Shown: positions 7,363-20,558 of the stretch, piece by piece
Position numbering within the stretch: the first letter of the stretch is position 1
Layout: each line of letters starts with the position of its first letter
Origin: Singulisphaera sp.
GTDB lineage: Bacteria; Planctomycetota; Planctomycetia; Isosphaerales; Isosphaeraceae
Length of the DNA stretch: 35,533 bases
Direction: 5' to 3'
NCBI GenBank assembly: GCA_027451445.1
Contig: DAIDJG010000289.1
Location: 1 to 35,533, forward strand
Notes under the pieces: generated by a model
The model's database searches: none
What the model was told of the DNA's origin: nothing
What the model saw: the letters and a program-made list of their open reading frames with translations, nothing else
Made by a program: the position numbers and the translations under genes

Positions 7363-7541
7363 AGCGCCTCGTAGATGCATTGCGCCCAGCCGGGAGGACG
7401 AGGCTCGATCGAAACGGACGCCCAGGCCCGTACCGCTCTGCACTGGTCCTCCTGAGTCAGGATCACTGTTCTGACGGTTCCGTCGTTCGTCACATCGACT
7501 GCGATTCGGAGAATGGTCTCCTCACGCTCGGTGGCGAATGA
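7359..7541 (-). pseudogene. Coding-like frame without a start, shifted +1 to the membrane gene
   Basis: On the minus strand, 60 codons are open from just inside the 3' end of the membrane-protein gene to a TAA at 7359-7361. The translation looks like protein: ETILRIAVDVTNDGTVRTV, then TQEDQCRAVRAWASV, then RPPGWAQCIYEAL. No ATG, GTG or TTG opens it near its beginning; the first GTG is about 15 codons in. The frame is entered from the membrane gene by a +1 shift at its UGA stop. It may be a truncated gene, a frameshifted tail, or a gene with an unusual start. Confidence 0.4.
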
Positions 7542-7968
7542 TCATCCAGGCCAGAAGCGCGACCCAGATCGCCGCGAACAACAGGGGAACCACGAACGCC
7601 AGCGGGCGACCGATCGATAAGCCGTCCGTCCGCCACGGACCGGCGAAGCTGGCGACGGTTCGCCCGTACTCCGGAACGGCACGTCTCACCAGTGCGTGGA
7701 CATGGACGCAGTACCGCCAGTGCCGGACCTGGACCACGAACCAGAGCAGCGTGAACGCCAGGGAGATGGCGATCAGCGGGAGGAAAACTCCGAGGGCCGG
7801 CTCCTTGTTGTAGAGGATCGCGAAGACACCGAGCAACCCGACTTGCATGGCCGAGAAGAAGTTCATGCGGTCGTGGAAAAGCTTCTCCTCGTGCAACGCG
7901 TGCATCCAGAGCCGATTGGCTTCGTCCGGATGCGACTGAGCGTCGGGACTGTTGGGCGGAATTTCCAT
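7522..7968 (-). CDS. Small membrane protein with three hydrophobic segments
   Basis: A 148-residue protein starting at ATG 7968; a longer frame to 8133 has low-quality sequence. A soluble N-terminus with LWMHALHEEKLFHDRMNFFS (about 20-40) leads into hydrophobic segments MQVGLLGVFAILY (about 41-54), LGVFLPLIAISLAFTLLWFV (about 60-80) and PLAFVVPLLFAAIWVALLAW (about 121-142), ending in RHRA. The topology, a short charged helix then membrane hairpins, is similar in outline to small membrane effectors found near defence genes, but I cannot assign a family. A truncated duplicate of its 3' end lies at 6302-6389, so the HNH pair is bracketed by this gene and its remnant. Confidence 0.65.
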   Translation of the reverse strand: MEIPPNSPDAQSHPDEANRLWMHALHEEKLFHDRMNFFSAMQVGLLGVFAILYNKEPALGVFLPLIAISLAFTLLWFVVQVRHWRYCVHVHALVRRAVPEYGRTVASFAGPWRTDGLSIGRPLAFVVPLLFAAIWVALLAWMIIRHRA

Positions 7969-8339
7969 GTCGATCTCAGTGGACTCGGCGCCATTTCCCA
8001 GGGACGGTCTCGCACGACGACGGGTATCATCGTCCACTTGGGGTGCGGGGCATAGGGGAACATCGCTATTGCTTAACGCGGACTTGGTAAGTTGCGGAGA
8101 CCAATCGCGCTGATACACACAGCTTCGTCCCACTGAGGGCGATTACCGTTTTGGTGTACTTAACGAGACCCAGGCGGTGCGCAGCATGGCAGCGTCGCCA
8201 GTGCTCGCCGACGCACTACCCTGACCGCGCAAAACCCATGGAGCAATAGCAACGTCCCCTCTGCCCGACACACGGTATCCTTCACAGAATGCGGAAACCG
8301 ACCGATGAAACCGAGGCCGCTAAGAAGGCGGGAGGAAAC

Positions 8340-8837: not shown

Positions 8838-9062
8838 GCTACCCGATCGTCCCGGGGCGACGGTGTCCTGCGCATGCGTCGGTGGACCCGCGTACGCGAA
8901 GGCGTCGGAGAGCGCGAATAGGGCTTCTGACGCGTTTGCTCTGTTTACCCACGTTGACCCCAGGGCCGTGCTCAAACTCGTCGCGCACCCGATCCCGCGG
9001 TGGTAGACTCACCGGGCGTTGGAGCGAATGACAGGCGATGCCGTAAGACGGAGGCTCGCACC

Positions 9063-9902
9063 ATGGACCCGAGATTTCAACCCGCGCAGGCTGCCCTCGC
9101 TGCAGGTGATCTCCAGGCGCTTGAAGCGCTCTTCAGAGCGGACCCGGAACTGGCGACCGCAGTCTCCTCTCAGAGCCATCCGACCCTCCTCCAATGCTTG
9201 GTGCTGACGATGCCGCCGGTCGACAAACTGGAACAACTCGTCGACGTCCTCGTCGATCGTGGTGCCGAAAGGGATAGCCCACTCATCGCGGCTGCGGGCG
9301 TGAATAACGTGCGAGCGATCACGAAGCTGCTGGACCGCGGAGCCCGTATCGAGGGCAACGGTCACTGGTCGCCTCTTGAGGAAGCGCTCTACTTTGGCAG
9401 CGCGGAATCGGTGTCGCTACTTCTGGCGCGAGGAGCGCCTGTGGAAAAGCTCCGGACCGCCGCAGCGCTCGGCGACATGGAGAAAGTCGCGGCATGCTTC
9501 GACGCTTCGGGTGTCTTGATCCGGGCAGGCGAAATCGAATGGCCGTTCCAACAGCACGCAGTTCCGGAGCAACACCGGCGCGATCCTCAACAGATCCTGG
9601 GCAATGCGCTCGTCTACGCCGCCGCCTGGGGGAGGTCGGAAGTCGTCGAATTCTTGCTCGCCCTTGGCGCCGAGGTGAACATGATCCCGGCTGGTTTCGA
9701 CTACTCCGGCACGGCGCTGCATTACGCCGCGTTCGGCGGCCATCGCGCGATGGTCGATCTGCTCCTGCGACATGGTGCCGATGCCGCGATCCGCGACACG
9801 AAAATCAGCGCGTTGCCTGAGGATTGGGCCGCGCACAGCGGATATCACGAGCTCGCGCAATTTCTCCAAGAAGTCCGCGGACAAGGAAGGGTGAGCGGTT
9901 AG
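9063..9902 (+). CDS. Ankyrin-repeat protein
   Basis: A 279-residue protein starting at ATG 9063, preceded by GGAGG at 9050-9054 (8-nt spacing). It is built of about six to seven ankyrin repeats: the clearest are SPLIAAAGVNNVRAITKLLD, WSPLEEALYFGSAESVSLLL, ALVYAAAWGRSEVVEFLLAL and TALHYAAFGGHRAMVDLLLR followed by HGADAAIRD. No signal peptide, membrane segment or catalytic domain. Such proteins act as protein-binding scaffolds or inhibitors. Its 3' end faces the nuclease gene convergently, with 59 bp between the stops. Confidence 0.85.
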   Translation: MDPRFQPAQAALAAGDLQALEALFRADPELATAVSSQSHPTLLQCLVLTMPPVDKLEQLVDVLVDRGAERDSPLIAAAGVNNVRAITKLLDRGARIEGNGHWSPLEEALYFGSAESVSLLLARGAPVEKLRTAAALGDMEKVAACFDASGVLIRAGEIEWPFQQHAVPEQHRRDPQQILGNALVYAAAWGRSEVVEFLLALGAEVNMIPAGFDYSGTALHYAAFGGHRAMVDLLLRHGADAAIRDTKISALPEDWAAHSGYHELAQFLQEVRGQGRVSG

Positions 9903-9961
9903 ACCAAATTCCTCGCTGATCATGACTGCCGCGGCATCGAATATCGAACTCGCTCTCACCG

Positions 9962-10204
9962 TCACGTTTTCCGCCGCGGCTTGCGCGGTGCAGCAGGGCG
10001 CTCAGCGGACAAGCGGTTCAGGTACTCGCGGATCTGCTCTTCGGTCAGACCCGCCAAGCGCTCCTCCGGAGGCAGTGACTTGATCATATCCTCCCGCTCC
10101 TCTTGCGGTAGTGACTTGATCACATCCTTCCGCGCCTCCGGCGTGAGCTTCGGGAAGTGATCCTTGACAAACTGGCGCTGGAATTCCTCCATCGTATACG
10201 GCAT
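9962..10204 (-). CDS. Possible intragenic 80-aa C-terminal product of the Rpn-like gene, copy 1
   Basis: In the reading frame of the nuclease gene, ATG at 10204 (codon 208) is preceded by GGAGGGG (complement of 10211-10217) with 6-nt spacing, a stronger ribosome-binding site than many genes here. It would give an 80-aa protein, MPYTMEEFQRQF..., containing the 12-residue repeats and the RLAGLTEEQ tail but none of the nuclease residues. In E. coli rpn genes a C-terminal product made from an internal start is known to inhibit the full-length nuclease. Whether it is made here is inference; the site could be a coincidence of the Glu-Gly codons. Confidence 0.45.
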   Translation of the reverse strand: MPYTMEEFQRQFVKDHFPKLTPEARKDVIKSLPQEEREDMIKSLPPEERLAGLTEEQIREYLNRLSAERPAAPRKPRRKT

Positions 10205-10825
10205 GGGAAACCCCTCCGCATGAAGCCCTTCGAACAGTTGGATCAGCAGGCCACTCGTGTTCCGGGAGTGCCGCTGGTAGGTGCGGCCGCCAAACCCGAC
10301 AAGCTCCGGCGAGGCGCTGAACAGGTGCAGCGGGGCGTTGTGCGGTTCGCGCGGCAGCTCGCCTGCCACGACCACACGGATCGTATCGGCGCCCCACTGA
10401 CAATCATAGACACCCGCCTGGACCCTCTGCCAGGGCACCTGGGCCGACAGATTTTGCGGGTAGCGGGCGGTCACGGCATAAAGCCGGAATTGGTCCTCGG
10501 CAAGTAGATCCGACGGCGAGCGGCTGACGAGCTTGCGGTAGGCCACGTAATGACCGACCAGCTCTTTCATGGCCCAGGCGTCGAGCGCCTCACGGTGCGA
10601 CTTGAAGGTGAGCAGGTTGTGCGCCAGGAGCCCCTCCAGGCCGTCCGGCAGACGGCCAGAGAATCGCCCACGGCCCCGGCGTACGATCACCACGTCGAGC
10701 AGTTGCTGCTGCACGGACAGGTCCGCTTCGATTTCGACGACGAAGGGCGAACCGCTGAAGAGGTCGGTCAGCAGTAGGCCGAACAAGCGGTGGCAGTCAC
10801 GCAGTGCTTGCCGATTAACGGCCAT
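9962..10825 (-). CDS. Rpn-like putative PD-(D/E)XK nuclease, copy 1
   Basis: A 287-residue protein starting at ATG 10825 after GGAGGG. The N-terminal domain looks like a restriction-endonuclease fold: a conserved Glu in VVEIEADLS (Glu31), Asp in QLLDVVIV (Asp44), and Lys in LLTFKSHREAL (Lys75), fitting an E...D...xxK layout. Then come helical VGHYVAYRKLV and VYDCQWGADTIRVVV segments. Two 12-residue units (DVIKSLPQEER, DMIKSLPPEER; residues 232-255) precede RLAGLTEEQIREYLNRL, a tail type seen in the Rpn/transposase-like nuclease families of cyanobacteria and planctomycetes. About 92% identical over 207 residues to copy 2 at 19623-20558. The nuclease call is by motif and memory of the family; it could be a non-catalytic relative. 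See the internal start at codon 208. Confidence 0.6.
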   Translation of the reverse strand: MAVNRQALRDCHRLFGLLLTDLFSGSPFVVEIEADLSVQQQLLDVVIVRRGRGRFSGRLPDGLEGLLAHNLLTFKSHREALDAWAMKELVGHYVAYRKLVSRSPSDLLAEDQFRLYAVTARYPQNLSAQVPWQRVQAGVYDCQWGADTIRVVVAGELPREPHNAPLHLFSASPELVGFGGRTYQRHSRNTSGLLIQLFEGLHAEGFPMPYTMEEFQRQFVKDHFPKLTPEARKDVIKSLPQEEREDMIKSLPPEERLAGLTEEQIREYLNRLSAERPAAPRKPRRKT

Positions 10826-10859
10826 CGAACAGCCCTCCACCCCTCTGTGTCGAACGCGG

Positions 10860-10865
10860 ATTGTA
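10860..10865 (-). promoter_or_regulatory. Candidate -10 (TACAAT) of Rpn-like copy 1
   Basis: TACAAT on the minus strand ends 34 nt before the ATG. The same hexamer, in the context AAAGGTACAATC, occurs at the identical distance upstream of copy 2 (20593-20598), within about 110 bp of shared upstream sequence. No good -35 is visible. Confidence 0.35.
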
Positions 10866-12863: not shown

Positions 12864-12905
12864 CTTGCAGAAGGCAGAGGGCAACGTGTCTGCAAGATAC
12901 TTGCA
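12864..12905. promoter_or_regulatory. TGCAAG/CTTGCA sites upstream of the kinase gene
   Basis: CTTGCAG at 12864-12870 and the perfect palindrome TGCAAG-ATA-CTTGCA at 12891-12905 lie 104-145 bp before the chosen kinase start. The same hexamers recur just downstream of the regulator gene (15822-15899). The spacing from the start suits enhancer-type sites of an NtrC-family regulator, so autoregulation is likely by inference. Confidence 0.55.
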
Positions 12906-13008
12906 TACCAACGGGCGCCGGATAAGCTGGCGAGAGGGTGTCGGCCCCTTCAAAGGCAGCGTCTGCTTGCCGACCGTGACCGACCTGGTCGCGAAGGATC
13001 CAAAGGGC

Positions 13009-14385
13009 ATGTTCACCGTCGGTTCTTCGGATGTCCAGAGGCGTATTCCGATCACATCTGCGCTCGTGCTGACCGCTCTCCTGGCGGCCTACGCGCTCAG
13101 CGTTGCTGCGGTCTATCAGGTTTTTGACGAGTATCGGACATTGGGAGCGTGGCTCGCCGGGCCGGGGCCGGTACCAACCGACGAGATTCGAGCGCTCCGG
13201 CAAGACATTGGGGGCCGGATCATCGCGCGGAGCATCGCGTCCGCGGTGCTCCTGCTCTGCACGCTCTCAACCCTCTGGCTTCAGCAGCGGCAGCTTGCCA
13301 TCCGCCGTGCCCTGGATCACGTGAAGCTGCTCGCCCACAACATCCTGGGAAGCCTGGACGCAGGCGTGATCACCACCAACCAGCAAGGAATCATCACGAG
13401 CATCAACTCCGCAGCGAACGACTTGCTCGGGATCGATTTCGAGTGCGTTGGCCAGCCCATTGCCTGCATCTCGTCGGGTGAAGTGCCTCTCGAAACGATG
13501 AGCGCCTGGGTGACGGCGAAACGAGAAGCCGTGAACGATCGCGAGCTCACCCTTGACCGCTCGGGGCGCGTGCGGCGACTCGTTGCGAGCGCGCTCGAGC
13601 TAAAAGACCGGCAAGGAGACACGCTCGGCTGTGTGATTCACCTGCGCGATGTGACGGAACGCATGCTGATCAAGGAACAGATGTGGCGGATGGAGCAGTT
13701 TGCCAGCCTGAGTACCCTGGCGTCGGGCTTGCACCACGAAATCAAGAACCCGATCGCCGCACTCAGCATCCATGTGCAGTTGCTCGAAGAGCAGCTTTGT
13801 GCCGCCGGGGCGGCCGAATCCGTCGCCGGCGTTATCGGTATTCTGAAGTCCGAAATCCGGCGGCTCAATTCGACGCTCGACAGCTTCCGCAACTTCGCGA
13901 ACCTCCAGCGCCTGAACCTCAAGCCGGTCGACGCCCAGGGAGTGCTCGAAGACCTCGTTCGGCTCATCGACCCTCAGGCCACCCGGCAGGGCGTACGGCT
14001 GGAGCTACTACGACCCGACACGCCGCTGCCACACGTGGTTCTCGACTCGGAGAAGATTCAACAAGCCCTGCTCAACCTGATCTTGAACGCGCTCGAAGCC
14101 ATGCCGAAAGGCGGAGAACTGACGCTGAGCGCCACTGTTGAAAATGAGGCGCTGCATATGGTGGTGCGCGACACCGGCCCGGGGATCCCGCGCGAGATTC
14201 AGGACCACATCTTTCATCCGTATTTCTCAACCAAGGACCATGGAACGGGAATAGGCCTCAGTCTGGCCGAGAAGCTGATCCGTCAGCACCGCGGACACCT
14301 CGACTTCCGCACGGGACCGGGAGGAACGTCGTTTCGGATCACGCTACCACTCAAATCGCCTTTGAGGAGCACCAACGTCTCATGA
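13009..14385 (+). CDS. Membrane-bound PAS histidine kinase (NtrB-like)
   Basis: A 458-residue sensor kinase. Two membrane segments (ITSALVLTALLAAYALSVAAVY, about 15-36, and SIASAVLLLCTLSTLWL, about 75-91) flank a short extracytoplasmic loop of about 38 residues. A PAS domain follows (ILGSLDAGVITTNQQGIITS...; about 112-215), then the H-box with phospho-acceptor His in GLHHEIKNPIAAL (about His243), the N-box LLNLILNALEAMP, G1 DTGPGIP, F-box IFHPYFSTK and G2 GTGIGLSLAEKL. The start at 13009 has GAAGGA upstream and places the TGCAAG sites outside the gene; an open extension to 12865 would put them inside. It overlaps the regulator gene by 4 bp (ATGA). It is expected to phosphorylate that regulator; the signal is unknown. 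Confidence 0.9.
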   Translation: MFTVGSSDVQRRIPITSALVLTALLAAYALSVAAVYQVFDEYRTLGAWLAGPGPVPTDEIRALRQDIGGRIIARSIASAVLLLCTLSTLWLQQRQLAIRRALDHVKLLAHNILGSLDAGVITTNQQGIITSINSAANDLLGIDFECVGQPIACISSGEVPLETMSAWVTAKREAVNDRELTLDRSGRVRRLVASALELKDRQGDTLGCVIHLRDVTERMLIKEQMWRMEQFASLSTLASGLHHEIKNPIAALSIHVQLLEEQLCAAGAAESVAGVIGILKSEIRRLNSTLDSFRNFANLQRLNLKPVDAQGVLEDLVRLIDPQATRQGVRLELLRPDTPLPHVVLDSEKIQQALLNLILNALEAMPKGGELTLSATVENEALHMVVRDTGPGIPREIQDHIFHPYFSTKDHGTGIGLSLAEKLIRQHRGHLDFRTGPGGTSFRITLPLKSPLRSTNVS

Positions 14386-15782
14386 GTAGCGAGGTCTTTC
14401 CGATCCTGATCGTCGATGACGAGCCGAACATCCGTGCTGGCCTGGCGCGGGCGCTGGCGTGCGACAACTATTCCATCGCCACGGCCAAAGACGCCCAGGA
14501 AGCGTGGAACCTGTTCCGAAGCGACCACCACCTGCTGGTCCTCACCGACTTGAAAATGCCCGGTGGCAGTTCGGGCATCGACTTGATCCGGCAGATCAAG
14601 GATGAGCGTCCGGAGACCCTCATCATCGTCATCACGGCGCATGGTACGGTGGAGACGGCCGTCGAGGCCATGCGGTTGGGGGCGCACGATTACCTGGTGA
14701 AGCCGGTCGACCTCGGGACGCTCCGGTTGCAAGTGCGCAACGCGTTCGAACACCACCGGCTTCGCGAAGAGAACCGCCGCCTGCGGGATCGCCTGGCCGT
14801 CGCGGGCGAAATCCCCGAAATGATCGGTCAATCGGCGGCAATTCGCGAGGTGTTCGCCCGGATTCGGCAGGTTGCCGACACGGATGTGACCGTCCTGATC
14901 CAGGGGGAAAGCGGGACCGGCAAGGAACTCGTCGCCCGCGCGATCCACAACCTGAGCCCGCGTCGCGAGGGTCCCTTTGTGGCTGCGAACTTCGGGGCAC
15001 TGCCCGAAGGACTCATCGAAAGCGAGCTCTTCGGTTACGAAAAAGGTGCATTTACTGGAGCCCAGCGTCAGAAGGCCGGCTGGTTCGAGATGGCGCGGGG
15101 AGGCACCCTCCTGCTTGACGAAGTGGGCGAGATGATGTCGAAGACCCAGGTTGACCTCCTGCGCGTCCTGGAGCAGCGCGAGGTGAGGCGACTCGGGGGA
15201 GTGGCCATGATTCCCCTGGATGTCCGCCTGGTCGTCGCGACCCACCAGGATATGGAGGGCCTGGTTGCCAGTGGCAAGATGCGCGAAGATCTGTACTACC
15301 GCCTCAATGTCATCCCGCTCCGCGTCCCTCCTCTTCGCGAACGCATCGACGATATTCCCCTGCTGACACAACACTTCCTCCGCTGGGCCCAGCAGCGACA
15401 CGGACGCACGCCGAAAGAAATCGCCAGCGCCGCGATGCGCGCTCTCTGCGAATATTCCTGGCCCGGAAACGTGCGCCAGTTGAAAAACTGCATGGAGCGC
15501 CTGGTCGTCACCGTCGAGGGGTCGATGATCCACCTCGAAGACCTGCCAACGGAGATGCAAGGGAGGCGGCCTGCTCTGACGGCGAACCCGTGGCCCATTG
15601 ATGTCTCCGAAAAACTCGCCCACGAGGTGCCCACGCTCGAGGCCGCCGTGGCCGAAGCCGAGAAGACCACGATCCTCGCGGCGCTGAAGCGTTGCGAGCA
15701 CCACCGCGAGCGAACCGCTCAACTCCTCGGCGTGAGCGTGCGGACGTTGCACTACAAGATGAACCGGTACAACCTCCAGTAA
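14382..15782 (+). CDS. NtrC-family sigma-54-dependent response regulator
   Basis: A 466-residue regulator with all three NtrC-class domains. The receiver holds ILIVDDEP and the phospho-acceptor Asp in LTDLKMPG (Asp56), with Lys107 in the usual place. The AAA+ domain has Walker A GESGTGKE (175-182), the sigma-54 contact loop GAFTGA (222-227), Walker B LLLDE (243-247) and an arginine-finger region REDLYYRLNV. The C-terminus has a Fis-type helix-turn-helix, ERTAQLLGVSVRTLHYKMNR (about 443-462). It should activate sigma-54 promoters once phosphorylated by the kinase encoded just upstream. Likely DNA sites are the TGCAAG palindromes at 12864-12905 and 15822-15899. Confidence 0.95.
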   Translation: MSSEVFPILIVDDEPNIRAGLARALACDNYSIATAKDAQEAWNLFRSDHHLLVLTDLKMPGGSSGIDLIRQIKDERPETLIIVITAHGTVETAVEAMRLGAHDYLVKPVDLGTLRLQVRNAFEHHRLREENRRLRDRLAVAGEIPEMIGQSAAIREVFARIRQVADTDVTVLIQGESGTGKELVARAIHNLSPRREGPFVAANFGALPEGLIESELFGYEKGAFTGAQRQKAGWFEMARGGTLLLDEVGEMMSKTQVDLLRVLEQREVRRLGGVAMIPLDVRLVVATHQDMEGLVASGKMREDLYYRLNVIPLRVPPLRERIDDIPLLTQHFLRWAQQRHGRTPKEIASAAMRALCEYSWPGNVRQLKNCMERLVVTVEGSMIHLEDLPTEMQGRRPALTANPWPIDVSEKLAHEVPTLEAAVAEAEKTTILAALKRCEHHRERTAQLLGVSVRTLHYKMNRYNLQ

Positions 15783-19622: not shown

Positions 19623-19937
19623 TTACGTTTTCCGTCGCGACTTGCGCGGTGTAGCGGGGCGCTGGGGTGACAAGCGGTTCAGGTACTCTCGGATCTGGTC
19701 TTCGGTCAGACCCGCCAGACGCTCCTCGGGCGGCCGTGACTTGATCACATCCTCCAACTCCTCCGGCGGCAGCGACTTGATTACGTCCTTCCGCGCCTTC
19801 CGCAGCAGCGACTTGATCACATTTTCCCGCACGTCCGGCGGCAGTGACTTGATCACATCTTCCTGCTCCTCCGGCGTGAGCTCCGAGAAGCGATCCTTGA
19901 AAAACTGGCGGCGGAAATCCTCCATGGTGTACGGCAT
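19623..19937 (-). CDS. Possible intragenic 104-aa C-terminal product of the Rpn-like gene, copy 2
   Basis: ATG at 19937 (codon 208 of copy 2) follows GGAGGGG (complement of 19944-19950) with 6-nt spacing, the same layout as copy 1. It would give a 104-aa protein beginning MPYTMEDFRRQF with all four 12-residue units. The two predicted short products would differ mainly in unit number, which could set partner specificity if they bind the nuclease; inference only. Confidence 0.45.
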   Translation of the reverse strand: MPYTMEDFRRQFFKDRFSELTPEEQEDVIKSLPPDVRENVIKSLLRKARKDVIKSLPPEELEDVIKSRPPEERLAGLTEDQIREYLNRLSPQRPATPRKSRRKT

Positions 19938-20558
19938 CGGAAACCCCTCCGCGTGAAGCCCTTTGAACAGTTGGATCAGCAGGTGACTCGTGTTCGGCGA
20001 GTGCCGCTGGTAGCTGCGGCCGCCGAAGCCGACCAGGTCCGGCGAGGCGCTGAACAGGTGCAGAGGGGCGTTGTGCGGTTCGCGCGACAACTCGCCAGCC
20101 ACAATCACGCGAATCGTATCGGCGCCCCACTGACAATCATAAACACCCTGCTGAACCCTCTGCCAGGGCACCTGGGCCGACAGGTTCTGCGGGTAGCGGG
20201 CCGTCACCGCATAGAGCCGGAACTGGTCCTCGGCGATCAGATCCGACGGTGAGCGGCTGACGAGCTTTCGGTAGGCCACGTAATGGCCGACCAACTCCTT
20301 CATGGCCCAGGTGTCGAGCGCCTCGCGGTGCGACTTGAAGGTAATCAGGTTGTGCGCCAGCAGCCCCTCCAGGCCGTCGGGCAGACGGCCAGAGAATCGC
20401 CCACGGCCCCGGCGTACGATCACCACGTCGAGCAGTTGCTGCTGCACGGACAGGTCCGCTTCAATTTCGACGACGAAGGGCGAACCGTTGAAGAGGTCGG
20501 TCAGCAGTAGGCCGAACAAGCGGTGCCATTCACGGAGTGCTTGCCTTTTGCTGGCCAT
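19623..20558 (-). CDS. Rpn-like putative PD-(D/E)XK nuclease, copy 2
   Basis: A 311-residue paralogue of the protein at 9962-10825; about 16 differences over the first 207 residues, with Glu31, Asp44 and Lys75 all kept. GAGAGGAG precedes the ATG. The extra 24 residues are exactly two more 12-residue units: four units lie at residues 232-279 (EDVIKSLPPDVR, ENVIKSLLRKAR, KDVIKSLPPEEL, EDVIKSRPPEER) before RLAGLTEDQIREYLNRL. The internal ATG at codon 208 with GGAGGGG is preserved. The longer open frame running up to 21026 crosses the MITE-like element and is not real coding. A recent duplication, also including about 110 bp upstream. Confidence 0.6.
   Translation of the reverse strand: MASKRQALREWHRLFGLLLTDLFNGSPFVVEIEADLSVQQQLLDVVIVRRGRGRFSGRLPDGLEGLLAHNLITFKSHREALDTWAMKELVGHYVAYRKLVSRSPSDLIAEDQFRLYAVTARYPQNLSAQVPWQRVQQGVYDCQWGADTIRVIVAGELSREPHNAPLHLFSASPDLVGFGGRSYQRHSPNTSHLLIQLFKGLHAEGFPMPYTMEDFRRQFFKDRFSELTPEEQEDVIKSLPPDVRENVIKSLLRKARKDVIKSLPPEELEDVIKSRPPEERLAGLTEDQIREYLNRLSPQRPATPRKSRRKT

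Follow-up and report, generated by a model that had tools for sequence, protein, structure and literature searches.

Does a nuclease-like gene of Singulisphaera sp. encode a second, shorter protein in its own reading frame, and could the shorter protein restrain the longer one? The question was raised by a stretch of 35,533 nucleotides (the whole of which is called the window here), in which a 287-aa gene, referred to as copy 1, contains an in-frame ATG at codon 208, position 10204, preceded by GGAGGGG (10217-10211) across the 6-nt spacer TTTCCC. From this site, the first-pass annotation had predicted an 80-aa product without the nuclease core, and its description was exact; the product carries none of the residues D44, K75, and E88. 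The elements of copy 1 that concern the two starts are as follows.

9962-10825, reverse strand: copy 1, the full-length "L" form, an ORF of 287 aa with the Shine-Dalgarno (SD) sequence GGAGGG; a putative PD-(D/E)XK nuclease with a C-terminal repeat domain (C-domain)
9962-10204, reverse strand: intragenic ORF, the "S" form, an 80-aa C-terminal protein that starts at codon 208 of copy 1
10211-10217, reverse strand: internal SD GGAGGGG, separated by 6 nt from the ATG at 10204, read from the sequence and invariant in 11 genome copies
10833-10838, reverse strand: SD GGAGGG of the main start, an ATG at 10825
10860-10865, reverse strand: TACAAT upstream of the main start, a possible -10 box, a role suggested by an alignment of the upstream regions, where it occurs in most copies

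Conservation of the internal start

The predicted anti-SD duplex energy was -10.0 kcal/mol at the internal site and -9.8 at the main start of copy 1, and the same measure recovered the published internal starts of E. coli rpn genes at -7.1 to -10.5 kcal/mol. Taken singly, the internal start of copy 1 would be weak evidence, because about 10% of the internal ATGs elsewhere in the window have such a site: in 22 other large ORFs, GGAG or GAGG lay 4-10 nt before 14 of 135 internal in-frame ATGs, and GGAGG before two of them. Its conservation across the genome copies and across the subfamily makes it more than a chance occurrence. The Singulisphaera sp. genome (10.9 Mb in 622 contigs) holds 11 full or near-full copies at 86-91% identity, in addition to fragments, and GGAGGGG and a start codon were retained in all 11 full-length copies (ATG in 10, GTG in one). 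Synonymous diversity within these 11 copies alone fell to low values just before the internal start, with similar lows elsewhere, and was not decisive.

For the wider comparison, 86 full-length ORFs were extracted, and clusters sharing less than 70% identity were formed from the part of each gene that precedes the internal start. Copy 1 falls in a subfamily, type B, of 61-62 full-length relatives in 29 clusters; 11 of these sequences are the copies of this genome, and the rest are gammaproteobacterial. The codon at the homologous place was ATG in 28 clusters and GTG in the remaining one, and an SD-like site lay 4-15 nt upstream of it in 29/29 clusters, compared with 9/87 of the remaining in-frame ATGs in these genes (Fisher p = 9e-20). 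The two clusters from the Singulisphaera sp. genome probably represent a single lineage, without effect on the result, and an earlier set of 25 clusters led to the same conclusion. The gene-within-gene reading had been staked beforehand on conservation of the internal SD and ATG, which was thus found in both phyla.

Such a site could also arise as a by-product of the conserved protein motif E-G-x-x-M-P-Y-T, with no internal protein being made; the residues of this motif are conserved in most members, and part of the SD therefore follows from the protein sequence. However, when amino acids were fixed and codons were resampled from each gene's own usage, synonymous choice favored the SD, with a mean duplex energy at the internal start of -9.2 against an expected -6.2 (z = -7.2), whereas the other ATGs used as a control gave z = -0.2. 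Relatives also build the SD from differing residues, namely GAG-GGN (E-G), GAG-GAG (E-E), AAG-GGG (K-G), and AAG-GGA-GGT (K-G-G), so that members with K-G, E-E, or K-G-G still form it, and separate genes, described below, begin exactly at the homologous Met. We regard the by-product explanation as highly improbable, and the internal start of the copy 1 family as very probably real on these comparative grounds.

A sister group, type A (L041, L074, L075, L076, L078, and L109-L125), is gammaproteobacterial and has a classical ExK...Q arrangement and a different beginning of the C-domain (M-x-x-x-L/F-T-P-E). Its signal was weaker, with an SD at the nearest Met in 8/16 and a synonymous z of -1.6, and it may represent a further gene-within-gene group.

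Repeats and free-standing genes of the C-domain

The domain that would be released by the internal start is built in part of short repeats, seen in both copy 1 and a second copy.

10058-10129, reverse strand: two 12-aa repeat units, KDVIKSLPQEER and EDMIKSLPPEER, in the C-domain of copy 1; the unit number varies among copies
19623-20558, reverse strand: copy 2, a full-length ORF of 311 aa
19623-19937, reverse strand: intragenic ORF of copy 2, 104 aa, with an internal start at 19937 and GGAGGGG at 19944-19950
19720-19876, reverse strand: tandem array of copy 2, with a 36-nt period and 4.4 copies, encoding 12-aa repeats

Variation in repeat number was confined to the C-domain, and the small products predicted for the intact genome copies measure 68, 80, 92, 104, or 116 aa, that is, 68 + 12n. 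Gammaproteobacterial members have 8-aa units instead (PEERLQGL). In Rpn, the unit is four amino acids long and lies 8-20 residues downstream of the internal Met, and inhibition fails when one partner gains a unit (PMC10327210).

In at least five relatives (L022, L036, L034, L055, and L093), the C-domain also exists as a separate small gene, which follows the full gene at a distance of 20-166 nt, has its own SD, and begins at the homologous Met. L022, L036, and L034 are the only three loci of a Methylococcaceae MAG that have full-length homologs, and each carries a small downstream ORF that starts at the equivalent of codon 208; L055 and L093 represent two additional genomes. The small ORFs of two of these relatives were located as follows.

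3846-4043 of L022: small ORF of 65 aa, with AAGGAGG before its ATG
2340-2546 of L036: small ORF of 68 aa

At L034, from the Methylococcaceae MAG, the gene upstream of the small ORF is frameshifted; L101 has a similar downstream small ORF, and only remnants of the small gene were seen at L063 and L091. No intact free-standing small gene was found beside the copies in the Singulisphaera sp. genome. The same arrangement of a full gene and a downstream small gene is known from E. coli rpnE/ypaA and rpnC (PMC10327210).

An internal protein may be real and yet act as a positive subunit, a structural partner that completes the complex which is active or binds DNA, in the manner of Cas11d with Cas10d. 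The sequence evidence for the internal start suits such a role equally, and complementary internal products are documented, as far as the citation of Cas11d in PMC10327210 goes. According to that citation, Cas11d is likewise the C-terminal part of a defense gene's product, translated from an internal start, but it is a positive subunit rather than the inhibitor proposed here, and the proteins are unrelated. The free-standing S genes and the variation in repeat number are closer to the inhibitor pattern of Rpn (PMC10327210), and we consider a positive subunit unlikely. An inhibitory action of the small protein on the full-length protein is plausible in view of its repeat-variable C-domain and of the free-standing genes that begin at the same Met.

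The putative active site and its permuted glutamate

The annotation of copy 1 as a PD-(D/E)XK nuclease stood at the level of the motif, with a displaced glutamate, and the fold was not confirmed. AlphaFold2 yielded unusable models both with three input sequences (copy 1, copy 2, and L022; pLDDT 42.7) and for the N-terminal part (pLDDT 45.1). A fold search with the poor model reached a best Z of 3.5, with MgtE and FliG C-ring domains in the top rows, matched through the C-terminal helices only. Pfam matches to MgtE_N were read as a resemblance between helical repeats and rejected as a relationship, and L025 was identified as an MgtE transporter and not a relative. The N-terminal part found no identifying match in Pfam, NCBIfam, PADLOC, or PDB sequences. 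The proposed site was derived by motif comparison.

10562-10696, reverse strand: putative permuted active site, with D44 at 10694-10696, T73-x-K75 at 10601-10609, and E88 at 10562-10564

All 61 type B sequences contain T/S-x-K...E with the Glu at K+13, the first position being T in 55 and S in six. The 24 sister-type sequences carry the classical D...ExK followed by Q (with D in place of E in one), and the position equivalent to this Q is E in 61/61 subfamily members. The two types are homologous (hhalign E = 1e-27). With 24 unpermuted and 61 permuted sequences, this one family is a clear natural example of a glutamate that has migrated within a putative nuclease active site. At the motif level only, then, copy 1 has the PD-(D/E)XK catalytic residues in an accepted permutation. 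A moved carboxylate is known from the working nucleases Cfr10I, NgoMIV, and relatives (PMC551604; PMC6344858); in these permuted restriction enzymes, which also include EcoRII, Ecl18kI, and PspGI, the acid is missing beside the Lys and placed downstream (PD...K...E). In contrast to them, the copy 1 family showed no detected sequence similarity and no methyltransferase partner here, and its permutation is deduced by comparison with unpermuted sister proteins. The putative nucleases of COG4636 (PMC551604) are comparable by description: they too are PD-(D/E)XK-like genes that proliferate and spread horizontally, and their active site is rearranged, but there the Lys has moved and here the Glu.

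The change of ExK to TxK could also mean that nuclease activity was lost, leaving binding proteins without activity or the remains of an element that proliferates. The Glu of the ExK half-motif is missing from every subfamily member, and several copies are broken or altered (L002, L007, L012, and L013). However, an invariant Glu stands at K+13 exactly in the proteins that lack the first one, and enzymes of the Cfr10I/NgoMIV group are active with the same permutation. Mean pairwise dN/dS among the genome copies was about 0.17 (mean dS 0.23), which points to purifying selection between them and likewise argues against loss. We judge a loss of activity to be rather improbable; catalysis would be retained through E88.

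The altered copies differ in what they could still produce. L002 (G000:C220:1636-2496) has a TAG stop at codon 144 and might still yield the short form only, since its internal start is intact. L007 (G000:C292) carries the substitution D44A. L013 (G000:C109:6638-6880) is a C-domain-only remnant in which codon E204 of the internal SD is TAG and upstream of which no N-terminal match was found. A mobile element with defined ends was considered and rejected; the segment that is homologous between copies begins about 10-130 nt upstream and reaches almost to the stop codon, and its ends vary.

Distribution, relation to Rpn, and proposed mechanism

The family of nuclease-like genes to which copy 1 belongs has multiple copies and no name as yet; by sequence comparison, it is shared by Singulisphaera sp. 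and some gammaproteobacteria. Its earlier description as a planctomycete family was mostly wrong: it was absent from the 58 planctomycete relatives searched, one of them of the same genus, and is commonest in one gammaproteobacterial family, where 28/43 genomes had matches, up to 40 per genome. Among 392 genomes of the phylum, the single further match was an MgtE transporter and no relative; one other planctomycetote MAG contains fragments of the family. Across the class Gammaproteobacteria, 4/369 genomes had matches, and the closest full-length relatives found, at 43% identity, are those of the Methylococcaceae MAG. No relatives were found on the viral contigs, plasmids, or phages searched. 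At L092 (G826:C73:7600-17000), a single gammaproteobacterial contig carries several copies of the family, some complete and some broken, an arrangement reminiscent of expansion by tandem duplication.

The label "Rpn-like" holds as a functional analogy and fails as a statement of family membership. Copy 1, copy 2, and the tested relatives had no match to PF04754 or NCBIfam, and the PF04754 profile found nothing in the whole Singulisphaera sp. genome, while the E. coli control was positive. Comparison by hhalign with E. coli RpnA/B/C/E, using shallow profiles, gave probabilities of 0.2% for the full length, 0.9% for the sister type, and 2.3% for the C-domain. Membership in the Rpn family (PF04754 / COG5464) is therefore not supported; because the profiles were shallow, remote homology is conceivable, and the two families could be distant branches of one superfamily. 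The likeness to the E. coli Rpn L/S genes (RpnA-E; PMC10327210) is one of organization: one gene with two in-frame products, the C-terminal one from a conserved internal ATG with an SD; a C-domain whose repeat number varies between close relatives, as in RpnS; a free-standing small gene directly downstream in some members; and a multi-copy, patchy, horizontally spread distribution. The repeats here are longer than the four-residue units of Rpn, the motif is the permuted T/S-x-K...E, and sequence or profile similarity is undetectable. The Rpn paper (PMC10327210) was the only description of such a system that our literature search retrieved, and, as far as the libraries and literature were searched, the family appears to be a previously undescribed variation on the Rpn-type design.

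We propose that each gene would give rise to two proteins in one frame, the full-length protein and the C-domain by itself, translated from the conserved internal ribosome-binding site. The full-length protein would combine an N-terminal PD-(D/E)XK-type nuclease, its glutamate permuted, with a helical repeat C-domain that is probably an oligomerization module. The free C-domain would pair with that of the full-length protein and keep the nuclease switched off; which L and S forms match would depend on the number of 12-aa (Singulisphaera sp.) or 8-aa (gammaproteobacteria) repeats. By analogy, the small C-terminal protein probably restrains the nuclease, and the likely use would be defense against phage or foreign DNA as a toxin/antitoxin pair from one gene, a strategy shown for E. 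coli Rpn (PMC10327210).

This mechanism as a whole, inhibition included, is the best-supported reading, and we consider it reasonably likely. It is favored by the start and SD in 29/29 clusters, the synonymous bias, the free-standing genes, the C-domain repeats, the swap from E-x-K...Q to T/S-x-K...E, and the dN/dS, and it is weakened by the unconfirmed fold, by the lack of profile similarity to Rpn in both nuclease and C-domain, by D44A in L007, and by the stop codon of L002. No recognized defense genes were present among the neighbors scanned in the window, which also counts against it. More tentatively, a second nuclease lineage without sequence relation to Rpn may have arrived independently at a toxin/antitoxin design in which one gene suffices and repeats encode the L/S specificity, and may have permuted its catalytic glutamate in the subfamily with the strict internal start; on this we are almost evenly divided, leaning slightly against. 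If the proposed mechanism holds, intragenic antitoxins would extend beyond the Rpn family into one that has no name as yet and reaches dozens of copies in some genomes. A general question then becomes testable, namely whether repeat number works like a lock private to each pair of full-length and short forms, which would let many paralogues share one cell without cross-inhibition.

The surroundings of copy 1 in the window include an ankyrin-repeat gene converging on it (9000-9902, forward strand). An ORF antisense to that gene (9417-9965, reverse strand) shares four bases with the end of copy 1 and is probably not a genuine gene. A match to PF24838 (8xMP, an octameric membrane protein family) lies at 7522-8133 on the reverse strand, and a PAS histidine kinase and a sigma-54 response regulator with a four-base overlap form a normal two-component operon at 12865-15782 on the forward strand.
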